DNA of 53,356 bases from Clostridia bacterium (GTDB lineage: Bacteria; Bacillota; Clostridia; Oscillospirales; Acutalibacteraceae). Location of the stretch: positions 1 to 53,356 of the forward strand of contig JAFSXY010000048.1 of assembly GCA_017443805.1 (NCBI GenBank), written 5' to 3'. This document shows, one piece after another, positions 41,883-49,433 of this stretch. The notes beneath the pieces are model-generated. The model was not told where the DNA came from and made no database searches. It saw only the letters and a program-made list of their open reading frames with translations. The translations under genes and the position numbers were made by a program. Positions within the stretch are counted from its first letter, which is position 1. Every line of letters starts with the position of its first letter.

Positions 41883-42110
41883 TCAAGCGTTTGTTTTTCG
41901 TTCCATTTCCCGTTCGATCTGCGCGGCGGAAAGCGTTTTTTCAAAATCTCCGCGCGAAATATGTTCTCTTTCATGCAGCAGACTTTTTTGCTGCTGCTCG
42001 CTGGAAAGCGCGCAGTTCAGATAGATGTTGTAATCCCCCTGCGCGTCCGGCAGCGTAAACGCCCGCACGGTCGGGGGCAGCTCCAAGGTTCGGATGATGA
42101 TCTCGTTCAA
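41883..42110 (-). CDS. Minimal ImmA/IrrE-type metallopeptidase
   Basis: 75 residues from a TTG at 42108-42110. The zinc motif is HEREH (HExxH) within QQQKSLLHEREHISRGDF, and the third ligand is probably the Glu of QIEREME near the C-terminus; GDYNIYLN upstream is typical of the short ImmA/IrrE domains seen in clostridial genomes. Such peptidases cleave a partner repressor and relieve repression, as ImmA does to ImmR in ICEBs1. The upstream HTH gene is the obvious partner. An AAAGGAGG lies 24 nt before the TTG, with a CCGGCA/TGCCGG hairpin between that could shorten the effective spacing. Small size or start assignment may reflect decay. Confidence 0.7.
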   Translation of the reverse strand: MNEIIIRTLELPPTVRAFTLPDAQGDYNIYLNCALSSEQQQKSLLHEREHISRGDFEKTLSAAQIEREMERKTNA

Positions 42111-42143: not shown

Positions 42144-42479
42144 TTATTCTTCGTCGCCGACCAGCGCGTCTACGATCTTCAGGATCTTGTCCAGATCCGC
42201 ACTGGTTGCTTTTTTTGATTTGTCAAACAGCAGCTTGCGCTTGCGGAACAGCTCCTCCTGCAGGTCTTCGTTTTCGGCGCCGTCCTCTAAAAAATAGGAC
42301 GCCGGCACGCCGAAATAATCTGCGAGCTTTTGAATGGTCTGTACCGAGAGCTGCCGCGTTCTGCCCATTTTCAGCTCCGTAAATACGGAGCTGCGCACGC
42401 CCGCGCCCTTTGCGAGCGCCGAAGGCCGGATGCCGCGCTCCGCGCACAGGCCGAGAATTTTTTCGTAAGTATCCGTTTT
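42144..42479 (-). CDS. ImmR-like Cro/CI-family repressor with no clear start codon
   Basis: About 110 residues. The HTH runs TYEKILGLCAERGIRPSAL, AKGAGVRSSVFTELKMG, TIQKLADYFGVPASYFLEDG, a classic Cro/CI fold, followed by a charged helical C-terminus ending KILKIVDALVGDEE. The frame is open back to a stop at 42492-42494, but no ATG, GTG or TTG precedes the HTH; GTG 42398 would delete half of it. AGGGGAG (about 42486-42492) stands ready upstream, so the true start should be near 42479. The end coordinate is approximate. Either a rare start (for example ATT at 42458) is used or the start was lost. Divergent from the Cys-rich gene at 42739, with repeated operator-like sites between. Confidence 0.72.
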   Translation of the reverse strand, partial: KTDTYEKILGLCAERGIRPSALAKGAGVRSSVFTELKMGRTRQLSVQTIQKLADYFGVPASYFLEDGAENEDLQEELFRKRKLLFDKSKKATSADLDKILKIVDALVGDEE

Positions 42480-42512
42480 TGATCGCTCCCCTCAAAAATG
42501 ATGCTTGACTTT

Positions 42513-42605
42513 TACAGAATTCTGTATTATTATGATCTTGTAGAATTCAGATTTCTGTAATTTATCGGATCATACTCAAATGATAATACATTTTTCTGTA
42601 AAAAG
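42513..42605. promoter_or_regulatory. Operator-like TTACAGAA sites
   Basis: A perfect 14-bp palindrome TACAGAATTCTGTA (42513-42526) plus two further half sites reading TTACAGAA on the minus strand (about 42553-42560 and 42594-42601). Three regularly repeated sites between divergent genes beside a Cro/CI-type gene strongly suggest its operators. Confidence 0.7.
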
Positions 42606-42657
42606 CAAGACTTTTTTTAATTTTTGCCTTTTTCGGGGAGAAAGATATTTTTTTCTG

Positions 42658-42666
42658 TGCTATGAT
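42658..42666 (+). promoter_or_regulatory. Extended -10 promoter of the Cys-rich gene
   Basis: TGCTATGAT (TGn plus TATGAT) with no good -35, about 70 bp before the ATG and just downstream of the operator-like sites. Confidence 0.45.
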
Positions 42667-42738
42667 TGTAACACAAGGCGGCCGGAAAGGAAAGCTGCGC
42701 TGTACGTATAAAAGGACTTGAAAAGAAAAGGAGACAAG

Positions 42739-42960
42739 ATGGCGAACAAAACGATCGAGGCGTTGGTGAAGTGTCCGTTTTTTGCATACGAACGGGGAGA
42801 GATGATCGCCTGCGAGGGCGTGGAAAAAAACACCTGCATGGCGACAAAATTCGCATGCGCAAAAGACAAGCACGCATATCTGAAGGCGCATTGCTACCAT
42901 GAAAACGGCTGCGGCTGTTTTCTGGCGGATAATCTTTATAAAAAATATGAGGAAGAATAA
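42739..42960 (+). CDS. Small Cys-rich protein
   Basis: 73 residues from ATG 42739, preceded by AAAGGAGA; a TTG at 42718 lies before the ribosome site and is rejected. Seven cysteines (12, 25, 33, 40, 52, 58, 60) and two conserved-looking aromatic pairs (CPFF, HCYH) suggest a zinc-bound mini-fold. Similar small proteins in clostridia sit near phage-type or sigma-factor genes and have no known function. It faces away from the ImmR/ImmA-like pair across the operator-like sites, so it is the likely controlled gene. Followed by a strong terminator. Confidence 0.75.
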   Translation: MANKTIEALVKCPFFAYERGEMIACEGVEKNTCMATKFACAKDKHAYLKAHCYHENGCGCFLADNLYKKYEEE

Positions 42961-43032
42961 AAAAAAGGCGCCGTACGGCGGGATCGGCCGTGCAGCAAGC
43001 TGAGAAAAGAACGGGAAAGCGCCGGAAATACA

Positions 43033-43085
43033 AAACCCGCCAGGACATTTCCGTAACCGGAACAATGTCTCAGCGGGTTTTTTTG
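43033..43085. terminator. Bidirectional terminator between the Cys-rich gene and the peptide operon
   Basis: AAACCCGC (43033-43040) pairs with GCGGGTTT (43074-43081), extended by GGACATT/AATGTCT inside; T-run on the plus strand, TTTTGTATTT on the minus strand. Confidence 0.85.
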
Positions 43086-43125
43086 CTTGTTTTTGTCCGG
43101 GCTCTCGCGCAGCGCAAAAAAACGG

Positions 43126-43251
43126 TCAGCGGCTTTCAAAGAGCTCCATCAGCTTATTGATCAGCGCTTTTATGAATTCCATTACGCTGTTGTAATCAAA
43201 ATTGTTTTCCAGGTTGATAAGATCCAAAAGTCCGGAAAAAAGATCTGCCAT
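43126..43251 (-). CDS. Amphipathic peptide A (41 residues)
   Basis: Fourth and last cistron of the peptide operon. ATG at 43249-43251, AGAGGTG 7 nt upstream, TGA at 43126. It begins MADLFSGLLDLINLENNFDY and ends with an amphipathic helix EFIKALINKLMELFESR. Net charge is clearly negative (seven acidic, three basic residues), so it is not a standard cationic antimicrobial peptide. No signal peptide, no Cys. Too short for usual gene callers, but the ribosome site, reading frame and shared layout with three neighbours make it a real gene. Function unknown. Confidence 0.72.
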   Translation of the reverse strand: MADLFSGLLDLINLENNFDYNSVMEFIKALINKLMELFESR

Positions 43252-43325
43252 AAACGTTCACCTCTTTTATGGTTTGAAAAGCGCAATCCGGCACGGCGTC
43301 CGGTTACGGCCCGGACCGGAAAAAA

Positions 43326-43463
43326 TCAGTTGTTTTGAATGAGCTTAAAAAGATCCACGCCGAAAAGCTCCTTAAAGAACCCCGCAACCGCCTCAAAGAC
43401 AATGCGGAACGCAGCGATCCAATCTTCAACGGAAAATGTAAAGTCAACCAGCCTGTTCGGCAT
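43326..43463 (-). CDS. Amphipathic peptide B (45 residues)
   Basis: Third cistron. ATG 43461-43463 with AAAGGTGG 7 nt upstream; TGA at 43326. Starts MPNRLVDFTFSVEDWIAAFR and continues IVFEAVAGFFKELFGVDLFK; hydrophobic and aromatic residues recur every three to four positions, giving one long amphipathic helix of mildly negative charge. The AxFF(K/R)xLF pattern resembles the C-terminal tails of the secreted proteins at 22672 and 25375 (AFFKG). No export signal is visible. Function unknown. Confidence 0.75.
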   Translation of the reverse strand: MPNRLVDFTFSVEDWIAAFRIVFEAVAGFFKELFGVDLFKLIQNN

Positions 43464-43492
43464 GAAAAAACCACCTTTCTGTGAAATAAAAA

Positions 43493-43654
43493 TTATTCGC
43501 CTTCAACTGCCTTATGGTTGGGGCTGGGCGGATAATTATCATAATCTCCCTCTTCGGGAAGCACAAGGATCCCCAACCACGCCATCACCTTTTTGAACGC
43601 GGTCAGCAGTTTTCTGATCAGATCAAGAACTTCGTCCATCGAAAAAGGAAGCAA
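43493..43654 (-). CDS. Amphipathic peptide C (53 residues, TTG start)
   Basis: Second cistron. GAGAGAGGTG ends 6 nt before a TTG at 43652-43654, whereas the in-frame ATG at 43637-43639 has only a pyrimidine-rich stretch before it; I therefore choose TTG, which also aligns LPFSMDEV with FTFSVEDW of peptide B. The helix part is VLDLIRKLLTAFKKVMAWLG; a polar acidic tail EEGDYDNYPPSPNHK follows. Downstream of a hairpin that can form a pseudoknot (43687-43724). If ATG is used the peptide is 48 residues. Function unknown. Confidence 0.72.
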   Translation of the reverse strand: MLPFSMDEVLDLIRKLLTAFKKVMAWLGILVLPEEGDYDNYPPSPNHKAVEGE

Positions 43655-43686
43655 TGAAAACACCTCTCTCTCGTTATGCAGCCAAG

Positions 43687-43724
43687 CGGCACGCTTCGGC
43701 CTTTTTTGCGTGCCGAAAAAAGGC
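43687..43724 (-). ncRNA. Possible pseudoknot/attenuator ahead of peptide C
   Basis: On the minus strand GCCTTTTTT (43716-43724) and AAAAAAGGC (43699-43707) form a perfect 9-bp stem whose 8-nt loop CGGCACGC is fully complementary to GCGTGCCG (43687-43694) four bases downstream. The two helices are either mutually exclusive or form an H-type pseudoknot. The element lies 16 nt before the ribosome site of peptide C. No family of riboswitch recognised. Confidence 0.55.
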
Positions 43725-43737
43725 GGAACGGCGGCAA

Positions 43738-43866
43738 TCAGCCGTTATCGGCGGCTGCGGTTGTTTCTTCCTCTCCTTTGCCGAGACCCTGCTTGATTGC
43801 TTTGACGATGTTTTTCAGCGCGTTGAAAAACGCCGCGATAATGGCAAGGATTTCACTCAATGACAT
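43738..43866 (-). CDS. Amphipathic peptide D (42 residues)
   Basis: First cistron of the operon. ATG 43864-43866, GAGGTG 6 nt upstream, TGA at 43738. Reads MSLSEILAIIAAFFNALKNI then VKAIKQGLGKGEEETTAAADNG: an amphipathic helix with Lys spaced along one face and an acidic low-complexity end. It shares IAAFFNAL exactly with the tail of the secreted protein at 8273-9169. No signal peptide or membrane-spanning length. Could be a membrane-surface peptide, a phenol-soluble-modulin-like surfactant, a leaderless bacteriocin-like peptide, or a type I toxin-like peptide; sequence cannot decide. Confidence 0.75.
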   Translation of the reverse strand: MSLSEILAIIAAFFNALKNIVKAIKQGLGKGEEETTAAADNG

Positions 43867-43908
43867 TGTTTGCACCTCACTTCAGTCGGATTATTTTTCT
43901 GCATTATC

Positions 43909-43937
43909 ATCATAGCACAGTGTGTTTCAAATAGCAA
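43909..43937 (-). promoter_or_regulatory. Promoter of the peptide operon
   Basis: Minus strand: TTGCTA (43932-43937), 17 bp, TATGAT (43909-43914), about 42 bp before peptide D. Confidence 0.75.
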
Positions 43938-44066
43938 CAAAAAAAACGGAGGAAACGAAAAATTTAAATATACACAACATTTTCGTAAAATTTGACAGGG
44001 AAAAACAGCTTTTTTAAGACGAATTCTCCTAAAAGAATAAAAATAGTTAAAATTTTGTAATAAACT

Positions 44067-44095
44067 TTGACTTTTATTTTCAGATATTGTAAGAT
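44067..44095 (+). promoter_or_regulatory. Promoter of the GH95-like operon
   Basis: TTGACT (44067-44072), 17 bp, TAAGAT (44090-44095), 34 bp before the ATG. Divergent from the peptide promoter. Confidence 0.65.
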
Positions 44096-44129
44096 AAAAC
44101 CATACCATAGATGATCGGGGAGATTTTTT

Positions 44130-46964
44130 ATGTCCGCAAAAGCTTTCAGAGCCGTCACGGCAGGGGTGTGCATTGCCGGCCTGCTGTGTTCGGCTGCCTG
44201 CGTCAAGGTCGGCATCACGCGGGACAACACGGCCTTAAAGCTGTTTAAGAACAGTGAAAAGGTCTGTTTCAGCGACACGTATTACGAGCTGCTTGACAAC
44301 GAAAAAAATGAAACGGACGCCTGGCGGCACGGCATGGTCTCCGGCAACGGGGAGCAGGGCTTTATTTCCAGCGGCAGCCCGTATGCGGACAGTTTGATTT
44401 TCCAGAATATCCATTTTGTCATGCCCAACCGGAACAAGCTTGTCACGCCGGACAGCGCCGACGAGCTGGACAAAGTCCGGCAGGCGGTCGTGAAGGGGGA
44501 AGCGGTCGCGGACGCGCAGACCTATGACGACGTATACGCCTTTCATCCCGGCGGCGCCCTGCGTCTGGACAGCCGTCGGCCGGAGGAGAAGCAGAAGGTG
44601 CGCGAATATCTGCGCTATACGGATTATGAGACAGGCGAGGTGGGCGTCTATTTTACCGACGCATACGGCATGTGGGAACGCAAATCCTTTACGTCCTTTG
44701 CGGATAACGCCGTCGTTACCGCGCTGACCTCTCCCTCCGGCAGCCGGATCAATACGACGATCACCTTTGACGATCCCGGCGTTCTTGCGAATTTCGGCGA
44801 GGGCAGCGAAGCGGACTGCCGGTATAAGACCTACGTCAGCCCGCGGGCGGACTGCATCGCCTTTATCGGGCATTACCCGGACTATGCGGAGAGCGAACTG
44901 TCCGAAAGCGGCTGGGCGACGATTACCTATGTGCTGACAGACGGCGGCAATCAGAAACAGATCAAGCTGGAACGGACCTTCCAAAGCGAGCAGGTCGTAT
45001 CGGGCGGAGCGCTCGGCATCCGGATCGAGAATGCCTACGGGGTGTATCTGATCACCCGTTCCGTGCGGCTGGAGGAGCTTGGCGCGCTGTCCGCTTTCAA
45101 ATCCGCCTCCGCCGACCGGATCGTCGGCGACACGCTTGCCGAACTGAAAAAGATTGAAGAAACATATTCCCCCAACGGATACTTTGATTATACCGCCGCG
45201 CTCACCGCACACGGAAAAATCTATACGCCGCAGTTCAACAGCGAAAGCTTAACGCTGGGCAATACGGATAACGCGGTCGTAAACGACGCGCTGCTTAAAA
45301 CGCAGCGGAAGTCCGATCAGCTGCTCAGCGCGCTTGCGGTCCGGGAGTATTGCGCCGCGCGGTACGTGCAGCTTTGCTGCGCAGGGACAAGCGTGCCGCG
45401 TCTTTGCGGCATGTGGACGGGAGAATTTTCTCCCGGCTGGGGCGGCAAATACACCATGGACGCCAACGTAAACCTGCAGACGGCGTCCCTTGCCTCCGCC
45501 AACCTGAAAAAAAGTGTTGTCGGATATGCAAACTTTATTTTGCGGCAGGCGCCGGCCTGGGCGGAAAATGCGCTTCTCACGCACGGCTTTACGGACGCCT
45601 TACAGGCGCCGGTGAATTTTGACGGCGACAACGCCTGCCTGACCGAGAGCTGCTACAGCTATCCCTTCCGCTATTTTAACGCGGGCGCCGCCTGGCTGCT
45701 GCACACGCTGTATGAGGCGCTGCAGGCCTACGGCGACATGCAGATCCCGTTAAGCGACGAATTCGATCTGCAGGCGCTCAAGTCTGTGCTCAGCCTGAAC
45801 GATGAGCCGCTGGACGAGGACGCGCTTGCTTCGATCGCCGAGCGCGGCAGCCTTGACCTGCGCGAGGAGATCCTTTTGCCGCTGCTTAAGCGCACCGCGA
45901 ATTACTGGCGGCAGCTGCTCAGTCCCGCATATTATACCGATAAAAACGGCGAGATCCATTATAAAGCCGGAAAATCTTCGCTCGGCGCGGGGGAGACCTA
46001 CTGCATCGTGCCGGGGTATTCGCCGGAGAACACGCCGACAGGGACGGACTGTCCCGTAACGGCAAACGCCGCGATCGATATCGCAGCCTGCCGGGATACG
46101 ATCAACATGCTGCTTGACGTCGCGCAATACAGCCGGGCCGAGATCGAAACGGACAGCTTTGCAGAGATTTCGGAAAACCTGCCGCAGTACCTTTACGACG
46201 AGTCCGGCGCGCTGAAGGAATGGGCTGTCGACGGCGTTAAAGAAAACAACGCCCACCGGCACTACAGCCATTTATACTGCGTCTGGCCGCTTTCGGAAAC
46301 ACAGCACGATAAAAAACTGCGCGAGGCAGCCGCACAGGCGCTCCGAAACCGTACGCCCGAAAACGGCGCCTCCCATGCTTTGGTGCACGCCGCGCTGATC
46401 GCCGCGCGTCTGAAGGACAATGAAACGCTGACAGACCTGCTTTTGCAGCTGGAAAATTCCGGGATCCGGTACGACAGCCTGCTTACCAATCACGATCTGA
46501 ACGGGGGCAGCGCCTACTGCACGGATTATGCGCTTGGGTATCTCAGCATCATCAACGAGGCGCTTGTTTACGCCGAACCGGGCGAGATCGAGCTGCTGCC
46601 GAGCGTGCCGCTGTCCGGCTTCAACGTGGGCAGCCTTTCCGGCCTGACGACCGCTGCCGGCGCGACGGTCAAGCTGATGTCCTGGGACCTCGGCGCAAAA
46701 TTCGTGATCGCGGATATCACGTCGGCCTCCGAACAGGATATCCGTATTTCCAGCCCGATCTCCGACGACGAAGAGAAGCTGCACTTTAACGCCGGCGAGA
46801 CGAAAACGGTCAAATTTGACCTGAATATCGAAGTCGAAGCCGCCGAGCAGCCGGCGTCCGCCGAAGAGGCCGAAACGCCGGAGGCTGTGACCGGGGACGA
46901 AACGATCGCCGAGCCGGCCGATGAAACGGCCGGCGAAACGCCGACGGAGGATACCGCGGCATAA
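44130..46964 (+). CDS. Secreted GH95-like glycoside hydrolase
   Basis: 944 residues. An N-terminal signal (AVTAGVCIAGLLCSAACVKV) could be a lipoprotein signal ending in Cys, though the lipobox is weak. A beta-sandwich N-terminal domain is followed by an (alpha/alpha)6-type core with CGMWTGEFSPGWGGKYTMDA and NVNLQTA, and later NAHRHYSHLYCVWPLSETQH, both typical of the GH95 fucosidase/galactosidase fold. The C-terminal beta domain ends in an acidic Glu/Thr/Pro/Ala tail that may be a wall-spanning linker. Substrate is probably a fucosylated or galactosylated glycan, inferred from the family. GGGGAG precedes the ATG. The lipase-like gene follows 21 bp later. Confidence 0.82.
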   Translation: MSAKAFRAVTAGVCIAGLLCSAACVKVGITRDNTALKLFKNSEKVCFSDTYYELLDNEKNETDAWRHGMVSGNGEQGFISSGSPYADSLIFQNIHFVMPNRNKLVTPDSADELDKVRQAVVKGEAVADAQTYDDVYAFHPGGALRLDSRRPEEKQKVREYLRYTDYETGEVGVYFTDAYGMWERKSFTSFADNAVVTALTSPSGSRINTTITFDDPGVLANFGEGSEADCRYKTYVSPRADCIAFIGHYPDYAESELSESGWATITYVLTDGGNQKQIKLERTFQSEQVVSGGALGIRIENAYGVYLITRSVRLEELGALSAFKSASADRIVGDTLAELKKIEETYSPNGYFDYTAALTAHGKIYTPQFNSESLTLGNTDNAVVNDALLKTQRKSDQLLSALAVREYCAARYVQLCCAGTSVPRLCGMWTGEFSPGWGGKYTMDANVNLQTASLASANLKKSVVGYANFILRQAPAWAENALLTHGFTDALQAPVNFDGDNACLTESCYSYPFRYFNAGAAWLLHTLYEALQAYGDMQIPLSDEFDLQALKSVLSLNDEPLDEDALASIAERGSLDLREEILLPLLKRTANYWRQLLSPAYYTDKNGEIHYKAGKSSLGAGETYCIVPGYSPENTPTGTDCPVTANAAIDIAACRDTINMLLDVAQYSRAEIETDSFAEISENLPQYLYDESGALKEWAVDGVKENNAHRHYSHLYCVWPLSETQHDKKLREAAAQALRNRTPENGASHALVHAALIAARLKDNETLTDLLLQLENSGIRYDSLLTNHDLNGGSAYCTDYALGYLSIINEALVYAEPGEIELLPSVPLSGFNVGSLSGLTTAAGATVKLMSWDLGAKFVIADITSASEQDIRISSPISDDEEKLHFNAGETKTVKFDLNIEVEAAEQPASAEEAETPEAVTGDETIAEPADETAGETPTEDTAA

Positions 46965-46985
46965 AAAAGAAAGGAACGCCCTGCC

Positions 46986-47726
46986 ATGAAAAAAAGAATC
47001 ATCGCTTTGCTGCTTTGTCTTGCGCTGCTGTGCGCGGGCTTTTGTATGACGGCTTGGGCCGCGGAGAGCGAAACGGTTTGTAAAACCGTTCCCGAGGTGA
47101 TGCGGTTTTTGATCGGCGACCGGAATTATACTGTCCCGCTGCGGATCCTGCCGGCCGTGCTTTCCGAATCGGAGGAGGAAACGCCCGTATACCTGATCGC
47201 CATGGTCGGCGTCAAGCCGGTCAAAGGGCAGGTAAACGTCGTGCAGACCTGTTTCCCGGCTGCGTTCAATAAAGAAAACGTTTACTTTGATCTTGTAAAA
47301 CAAACTGTTCTTGCCGAGGTCCCCGCGGGCAGCAGGCTGGTGTTCGTTTGCCACAGCCTGGGCGGCATGGTGGCGCAGCAGCTGCGCGCCGACGATGCGC
47401 TCAAAGAACAATATGAGATTTTGCACGTGCTTACCGCCGGTTCGCCTTTTATCATGACGAAGGGCGGCGAGGGAACGCTTGTCCGCCTTGCGGATCAATA
47501 TGATCTGATCCCGCTTTTGAGCCCCGCTACGGTCTTAAAGCCCGCGGCGCAGTTCCGCCAGGTCTGCCGTGAAAACGGCGGCTACGTCTTCAATCCGGAC
47601 GCCGCGCACAATCTGTCCTATCTGCGGGAGGATGTTTGGGGCGCATATGACGCGCTGGGCGTGAAAAACGGGAATACATCTCTTTGTTTTGACGCTTCTC
47701 TTTTACGTGAATTCGGCGCGGCATGA
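46986..47726 (+). CDS. Secreted lipase/esterase-like alpha/beta hydrolase
   Basis: 246 residues with signal peptide MKKRIIALLLCLALLCAGF then CMTAWAAES. The nucleophile elbow is FVCHSLGGMVA (CHSLGG, a variant of GxSxG with Cys in place of the first Gly), followed by AGSPFI and a likely acid in ADQYDLIPLL; the His is probably in PDAAHNLSYL. Substrate unknown; could be a lipase or polysaccharide esterase. AAAGGA precedes the start; likely co-transcribed with the GH95-like gene. Confidence 0.8.
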   Translation: MKKRIIALLLCLALLCAGFCMTAWAAESETVCKTVPEVMRFLIGDRNYTVPLRILPAVLSESEEETPVYLIAMVGVKPVKGQVNVVQTCFPAAFNKENVYFDLVKQTVLAEVPAGSRLVFVCHSLGGMVAQQLRADDALKEQYEILHVLTAGSPFIMTKGGEGTLVRLADQYDLIPLLSPATVLKPAAQFRQVCRENGGYVFNPDAAHNLSYLREDVWGAYDALGVKNGNTSLCFDASLLREFGAA

Positions 47727-47867
47727 TCAAAATTGACGGCGATCGGGCCAAAAATGACAACGGTATGTCCGAAAAGTCCGTTTTATGTTAGGATTGTTCC
47801 GCAGCGGTGAAAACCGCGAGACGGTTTATTATGAAGAATTATGGTAAAAAAGGGAGAGTCTGAACAA

Positions 47868-49433
47868 ATGAAAAAGCCTTGTATCTTTCTTGCGCTTATC
47901 TTGAGCCTGACCGTTTTGTGTCTGCCTGCTTCCGCCGCCGCTTTGGGCGACGTGGACGGCAACGGTAAAATCGAGGCCGCCGACGCCAGGCTTGCGCTGC
48001 GCGCGGCTGTGGGGCTGGAGGATTACGCCGCCGGCAGCGAAGCGTTCAAAGCCGCCGACGCCGACAAAAACGGCAAGATCGAGGCCGCCGACGCCCGTGT
48101 GATCCTGCGCGCCGCCGTAGGGCTGGAACAGCTGCCGGATGAAGATCAGCCCGCTTCCGTGCAGGAGATCGCCGATTTTTATAAGGCGGCGGTCCGGCGC
48201 GTAAAGGACGGCGAAGCCGGCTATACCAAAGCGGAGTGGCAGACGGTCGATCAGCTGAAGCTGTCCAATCTTTCAGCCGTGAATAACTCGATCCAGAAAA
48301 TTGTGGACGGTTTGTTGACCACGGAAGAAAAAGCGAGGGCAGACGCAAGCGTCAATGAAACGGGAACAGAGGAAGCCATGCGCCGTTTCCCCGCTTTCAC
48401 CCTGACCGATTATTCCTGGATCGCGAGCGCAAATTGTACGGACGAGGGCGGCAATTACAGAATTAAAATCGTCATGGCCGACGAGGATACGCCGCAGAAT
48501 GCGCAGAGCAGCTTCCTTGCGCAGGTAACCAATTCCGTTTTATATTGGGACGATATTGAAAAAGAACTGTCAAATTATAAGATCAGCAAAGTAGAGGATG
48601 CGCACGTGCTGTACCGCGCCACCGAGATCGACGCGCTTATTACGCCGGACGGCCGGTTTATTTCGCTGACGCATACGCTGCATGCGGAAATTACGATCGG
48701 TTCGGCAAGACTCCTTCTTACCAATCTGAAGAATCTCGGCGGAACGCTTGAAAACGTTGCTGACTTTTCCGCATTTTCCTATGCATCTTCGGTTCCGATG
48801 CTGCAGGGCGTACTGGAGATCGCCGATTTCTATAAGGCCGCTGTGAACAAGGTCAAAAATGACGGCGCCGCGGGTTATACCAAAAAAGAGTGGCAGGCGA
48901 TGTCCGACGTCCATCTGATGGGCGGTGCGGTTGACAATCTTATATTGAATACCGTCGACTCTCTGATCACCACGGAAGGGAATGCCGAAAATCAGGAATA
49001 CCGCAAGGGTTCCGAGACGGCGAAAAATCGCTTTGTACCCTTCACGCTGACGGATTATTCCAAGATCGCTTCTGCTTCCTGTATCTCGGTCGGCAATAAC
49101 TACAAGATCAAGATCGTTATGGCGGATGAGGATACGCCGAAAAACCGGGAATCCAGCTTCCTCGGACAGGTTTCCAACTCTGTTTTGTACTGGGATACGG
49201 ATATCCAGCCGCAGCTCTCCGTTTATAAGATCTCCGACGTGCAGGACGCGCACGTGCTTTACAGCGCCACCGAGATCGAGGCGATCATTACCCCGGACGG
49301 AAAATTTGTTTCGCTGAAACAGGCGCTGCATGCGAATATTTCGGTTGGCTCGGCAAAGTTCACGATCTTACCGATCCGGGATATCAGCGCCAAATTAGAC
49401 GACTTTGTCGTATTTTCGGATTTCCGATATTGA
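47868..49433 (+). CDS. Secreted dockerin protein with two homologous unknown domains
   Basis: 521 residues from ATG 47868, AGGGAGAG about 10 nt ahead; a start at 47841 precedes the ribosome site. After the signal peptide MKKPCIFLALILSLTVLCL, residues about 28-80 are a type I dockerin: GDVDGNGKIEAADARLALRA and DADKNGKIEAADARVILRAA, each with a calcium loop. Two copies of a roughly 190-residue domain follow, each starting EIADFYKAAV and containing FTLTDYS, YxIKIVMADEDTP and LITPDG. I do not recognise this domain. Type I dockerins bind cohesins, so the protein may dock onto a scaffoldin elsewhere; no cohesin is in the window. Confidence 0.85.
   Translation: MKKPCIFLALILSLTVLCLPASAAALGDVDGNGKIEAADARLALRAAVGLEDYAAGSEAFKAADADKNGKIEAADARVILRAAVGLEQLPDEDQPASVQEIADFYKAAVRRVKDGEAGYTKAEWQTVDQLKLSNLSAVNNSIQKIVDGLLTTEEKARADASVNETGTEEAMRRFPAFTLTDYSWIASANCTDEGGNYRIKIVMADEDTPQNAQSSFLAQVTNSVLYWDDIEKELSNYKISKVEDAHVLYRATEIDALITPDGRFISLTHTLHAEITIGSARLLLTNLKNLGGTLENVADFSAFSYASSVPMLQGVLEIADFYKAAVNKVKNDGAAGYTKKEWQAMSDVHLMGGAVDNLILNTVDSLITTEGNAENQEYRKGSETAKNRFVPFTLTDYSKIASASCISVGNNYKIKIVMADEDTPKNRESSFLGQVSNSVLYWDTDIQPQLSVYKISDVQDAHVLYSATEIEAIITPDGKFVSLKQALHANISVGSAKFTILPIRDISAKLDDFVVFSDFRY

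Follow-up and report, generated by a model that had tools for sequence, protein, structure and literature searches.

Ordered sets of short anionic amphipathic peptides in a family of Clostridia, and their possible likeness to phenol-soluble modulins

The window, that is, the whole stretch of 53,356 nucleotides that we analysed, carries four consecutive short genes on its minus strand. Gene A (43738..43866) starts with ATG and encodes 42 amino acids. Gene B (43493..43654) starts with TTG and encodes 53, gene C (43326..43463) encodes 45 and gene E (43126..43251) encodes 41. Each has a strong ribosome binding site, GAGGTG for A, B and E, and AAGGTGG for C. Gaps of 83 (A-B), 29 (B-C) and 74 (C-E) nucleotides separate the genes, and the net charges of the peptides are -1 (A), -4 (B), -2 (C) and -4 (E). 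An earlier note on this DNA described four minus-strand frames of 42, 53 (or 48), 45 and 41 codons behind such sites, exactly as we find them; the 48 codons correspond to an alternative ATG start of B. We favour the TTG start because the B proteins of relatives begin at about the same position (GTG and TTG starts are written as M in our peptide sequences).

Each gene belongs to a family that we name by the same letter. The amphipathic peptide A aligns with 10 relatives. In family B a conserved LGILVLPE closes the helix, and the helix of family C is marked by SxxDW. Window E matches the profile of family E (E 1e-11) and has an N-terminal extension that is present in none of 15 aligned relatives.

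A promoter of the vegetative sigma-A type, TTGCTA-N17-TATGAT, precedes the genes as reported earlier (43909..43937, minus strand). Its -10 box is extended, with TGTGC ahead of TATGAT, and the same -10 shape precedes the A and B genes of relatives. Further upstream lies a conserved element common to relatives, TGTTGTGTATATTTAAATTTTT (43958..43979, minus strand). After E the minus strand forms a terminator hairpin with a T-rich tail (approximately 43025..43081). A simple terminator scan had not flagged this hairpin; folding did (-28.4 kcal/mol, z -4.69; none of 200 shuffled sequences folds as well), which agrees with the strong terminator claimed before. The A and the B genes of relatives are both preceded, at a fixed place, by a sigma-A type promoter with an extended -10 box, and further upstream by an element. 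A is frequently its own transcription unit there, and B's own promoter stands before 17 of the 17 relatives' B genes compared. In the A-B gap of the window (43655..43737, minus strand) we see no B promoter and a weak hairpin at the gap start (fold z -0.50). Hence B, C and E are probably transcribed by read-through from A.

Short frames can arise by chance. When the window is filtered for short, amphipathic, Cys-poor frames with a ribosome binding site, five frames pass, four of which are the operon genes. The same filter finds a mean of 0.6 frames in 40 dinucleotide-preserving shuffles, and never two within 900 nucleotides on one strand. Chance frames were rejected on this comparison. Furthermore, the genes are under purifying selection. 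For nine pairs of genomes from the genus, dN/dS (Nei-Gojobori, concatenated genes, 112-222 codons per pair, the first of three A genes taken for locus L018) ranges from 0.17 to 0.30. Between the window and its eight nearest relatives synonymous sites are saturated, and the bias is the same (pS 0.71-0.87, pN 0.34-0.39). Four pairs from other genera give 0.15, 0.08, 0.23 and 0.07, one pair of divergent members of the genus gives 0.33, and a sixth pair is saturated. The earlier note would have given up its claim had relatives shown no preference for synonymous changes; the opposite is the case. That the four frames are real genes is close to certain.

These results also bear on a reading of the frames as the toxin of a toxin-antitoxin pair, a phage protein or products of chance. 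The peptides are short and hydrophobic, and single members do have weak holin and phage matches. Purifying selection and the shuffles speak against this reading. So, as far as known RNA families go, does the search of 42500-44200 against Rfam, where one sub-threshold, unrelated match appears and none above threshold. A phage origin was rejected: a search for B relatives in viral contigs gave 63 pattern stretches, none of which was confirmed. We consider any of these origins extremely improbable.

Judged by sequence, A, B, C, D and E are separate orthologous families. The order B-C-D-E is kept in 19 relatives (20 loci compared, window included), and A lies immediately upstream in 7 of the 19; locus L018 has three A copies. 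The window's set is A-B-C-E, with D missing. Thus the operon proposed earlier is a real gene set, but what the window holds is a reduced version of it, lacking D and a visible B promoter. The kept order also bears out the view that this is a family set rather than a recent tandem duplication. Profile-profile comparison links the families to each other in four comparisons (probability 80-92%); because all are amphipathic helices, such links are suggestive only.

Matches to peptide C occur in 16 of 98 relatives, every one inside the window's genus. A profile search detects B in 20 of the genus's 26 genomes, and in 9 of the 12 better ones. The B genes of two loci (L029 and L125) were absent from the gene list and were recovered in the locus comparison. 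Four of the six genomes without B (G001, G002, G014 and G020) carry other, divergent clusters of two to three such genes; no short-frame cluster was found in the remaining two, G010 (58% complete) and G024 (91%).

Each peptide has 30-60 residues and consists of one predicted amphipathic helix followed by an acidic tail. For the window this is a prediction, accompanied by a single AlphaFold2 model, that of B without its start residue, in which residues 5-26 form a helix (mean pLDDT 69.2). Hydrophobic moments over the consensus helices are 0.50-0.61 in all five families. In every one of the five, conservation is stronger on the hydrophobic than on the polar face (entropy 0.76-1.30 vs 1.36-2.09). 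The motif [LIF]G[IF] often comes after the helix: 46 of the 87 genus peptides have it, where shuffles give 8.6, and so do 24 of the 59 peptides from other genera, where shuffles give 5.3. No signal peptide was seen by eye in the peptide sequences. Of the 87 genus peptides 85 are net negative, two neutral and none positive, and none contains Cys. The description of the window's peptides as amphipathic, neutral to negative and free of Cys therefore holds, for predicted helices. Among the 59 peptides from other genera, 51 are negative, seven neutral and one positive, and two contain Cys; these were picked by the filter, plus four added by hand, and the filter limits Arg and so favours negative charge.

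Outside the genus we searched with a universal profile, A6, whose alignment has 33 rows (one of them, L028, departs from the real peptide in its first residues). A6 matches 22 of 250 genomes of the family at E 0.001. In seventeen of the 22, two or more genes that pass the filter stand together. Among the others, G038 shows two profile matches side by side and G107 one gene; the matches in G033, G239 and G291 lie inside long frames and were discarded as chance, along with several long-frame matches from another profile search. The 18 genomes with clusters span nine genera, the window's and eight others, and in the other genera a cluster comprises two to ten genes (ten in L074). In samples of 197 genomes of the order and 196 of the class A6 matched the window's own genome only, hence the profile does not simply gather amphipathic helices. 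The family-E profile gave two further matches in 295 genomes of the order, G567 (in a 562-aa frame) and G488; neither site has frames that pass the cluster filter.

The upstream promoter element recurs in three of the other genera. With a matrix built from nine A-type elements, the best-ranked site of the entire region lies upstream of the cluster in 9 of 23 cases from other genera (five in g76, one in g14, three in g77; not so in the other 14), a count that takes no account of how A+T-rich intergenic DNA is. We also considered the B-type element as the mark of a wider regulon and rejected this: in five genomes of the genus its pattern has 21 matches against 8 for a control pattern, and only 2 of the 21 precede peptide operons. 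By resemblance, the TGTGAA-N5-TGTAAA repeat could be a WalR-like site. In L138, L140 and L147 sites like this repeat stand without peptide genes and lead into TGCAAC/TATTGCAT stretches of a similar kind, possibly another repeated element.

Genes beside the clusters bear on further readings. In six genomes (G013, G014, G016, G017, G019 and G021) an A gene comes after spoVAE, and spmA/spmB-like genes adjoin the clusters L110 and L111 (by eye). Both observations fit peptides that act in sporulation in the manner of SpoVM. However, G119 (97% complete), G236 (88%) and G123 (82%) have clusters and no SpoVAC/SpoVAE match, and the promoters are sigma-A-like. Since the clusters are not confined to genomes with spore genes, we reject sporulation as the function and rate its chances as very slim.

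In two of the six genomes (G014 and G019) spoVAE is followed by two A genes and then by a secreted lipase. In G017 the contig stops after spoVAE, A, A, and in G013, G016 and G021 lipases precede spoVAE and A. The lipase beside A is of the Pfam PF24708 type; the scan was made on the G019 protein, with which the G014 protein shares 82.7% identity (the Pfam scan covered eight proteins, six of them cluster neighbours). A single lipase-peptide operon was rejected, as a terminator and the lipase's own promoter stand between. This arrangement recalls LspU/LspD of Staphylococcus aureus, amphipathic small proteins beside a secreted lipase: according to PMC12607899, LspU adjoins sal1 in Staphylococcus and is amphipathic and lipase-associated. 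In contrast to the Clostridia genes, LspU/LspD are 21 aa long and lie within the sal1 mRNA. Moreover, the window's main operon has no lipase directly beside it.

Several short, leaderless, related peptides per locus are also known from leaderless bacteriocins. Aureocin A70 and garvicin KS have three to four related peptides per locus, according to PMC6131525. A multi-peptide bacteriocin of this kind would account for a single operon with several products that are short and helical, carry no leader or modification and are related to each other. Charge argues against it, as the earlier note had supposed: known members carry +4 to +7 in table passages of PMC6131525, whereas the window peptides carry -1 to -4 and not one of the 87 genus peptides is positive. 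The experimentally confirmed members described there also have secretion and immunity genes nearby. In contrast, across genera no gene, transporter, secretion and immunity genes included, recurs beside the Clostridia clusters (assessed mostly by eye), and amino-acid type ABC genes adjoin L024, L026 and L121 only. Finally, clusters are present in about 24 of the 26 genomes of the genus, unlike a patchy bacteriocin. We therefore regard a bacteriocin as improbable.

Known peptide families give few leads. Neither Pfam nor NCBIfam has a match at cut-off for the window peptides or the family members, and we found no report of such a peptide system in the open PubMed Central literature. Below the cut-offs, phenol-soluble modulins come closest in three libraries. 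In the Protein Data Bank the top four matches of A6 are all phenol-soluble modulin alpha-3 (E 0.023-0.15, short of significance). Pfam PSMalpha matches 2 of 33 members (best E 0.021), the NCBIfam epsilon modulin 4 of 33 (best E 0.012) and delta-lysin 1 of 33 (0.45), none passing. The window peptides have no modulin hit, and the B profile by itself finds no modulin in the Protein Data Bank. These sub-threshold matches may reflect amphipathic composition. Pfam phiKZ_IP, a single-family match (4 of 33 members, best E 4.8e-5), probably reflects composition.

The layout points in the same direction. Tandem operons of anionic beta-type phenol-soluble modulins are a close analogue, and the earlier statement that no named system with this layout was known is too strong. 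Beta-type modulins are described in PMC7913919. The staphylococcal modulins (alpha, beta and epsilon; SLUSH) resemble the Clostridia peptides in being short leaderless amphipathic helices that occur in sets, some in tandem operons, and they are the nearest sequences, below significance, in the universal-profile search of the Protein Data Bank. They differ in that the Clostridia sets pass no family cut-off, belong to a distant lineage, form clusters of up to ten different peptides and carry long acidic tails. Further marks of modulins are control by AgrA or another quorum-sensing regulator and surfactant or membrane activity; on the side of regulation, the Clostridia genes show the conserved upstream element. 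The comparison is one of genes and predicted helices.

The explanation we prefer, with slightly less than even confidence, is an anionic multi-peptide system specific to this lineage, with a mode of action like that of phenol-soluble modulins and with members acting together at membranes or surfaces. The shape, charge and number of the peptides, the strength of the promoter and the weak sequence resemblance suggest such an action. The peptides would be made in quantity and exported with no signal peptide, in the way of modulins, by a transporter whose gene lies elsewhere. In staphylococci, the gene for the Pmt-type ABC transporter is unlinked to the modulin genes. Outside, the hydrophobic faces would enter lipid surfaces or each other. 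The peptides would act as a mixture, either an anionic surfactant or an aggregate of helices, located on the cell's own surface or on particles of lipid and fibre in the gut. Their acidic tails may hold them in solution and protect the anionic membrane of the producing cell. The presence of several distinct paralogues in a kept order suggests that the working unit is the mixture and not the single peptide. It is possible, if doubtful, that these tandem sets of two to ten peptides radiated in the family with no homologue among the known modulins or bacteriocins, and that mutual assembly into a defined mixed structure keeps their order and identity; they would then form a multi-peptide machine of a new class.

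Alternatively, the peptides could stay inside the cell and build a hetero-oligomer, with its own place for each family, that coats a membrane or some other surface. The ordered one-of-each sets of 19 relatives and the conserved hydrophobic faces would suit such an assembly, as would the lack of a recurring transporter and of a visible signal peptide. A fixed structure predicts more constancy than we observe, however: the number and kinds of peptides vary from two to ten between genera, and within the genus A is absent, single or triple and D is lost in the window. We judge an internal assembly unlikely, though worth keeping in mind.

On either account the peptides are strongly selected in abundant gut Clostridia, ruminant-gut genomes among them, while being shorter than annotation usually keeps and present in none of the family libraries searched. 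If the modulin-like reading is right, it would be normal for commensals, and not for staphylococci alone, to make mixtures of anionic surfactants, and these would probably affect lipid use, surface attachment or neighbours. Families kept in order also offer a direct route to testing whether peptide mixtures evolve as one unit.

Some further neighbours deserve mention. Beside the operon, on the opposite strand, the window encodes a large secreted glycoside-hydrolase-like lipoprotein (44130-49433, plus strand, by eye); the same interval has a weak alpha/beta hydrolase match and a dockerin-like repeat protein (by eye). On the other side lies a 73-aa Cys-rich protein (KCPFF...CEG; 42740-42960, plus strand) with no Pfam match. 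The gene caller missed this copy, and homologues lie near the peptide cluster in at least 9 of 36 regions. An XRE-type regulator (HTH_26) and then a 75-aa protein with a HEREH motif together occupy 41883-42110 and about 42144-42473 on the minus strand; the latter resembles the start of ImmA/IrrE and has no Pfam match. An XRE regulator with an ImmA-like protein is found near clusters in five of the 36 regions of the genus. In genome G225 a collagen-like GPTG repeat protein lies near a peptide cluster (L180, 1664-2626, plus strand). The clusters L110, L111, L113, L186 and L188, from genera g112 and g77, have as neighbours a DUF5058 membrane protein (PF16481, assigned for the L110 copy) and a partner membrane protein.
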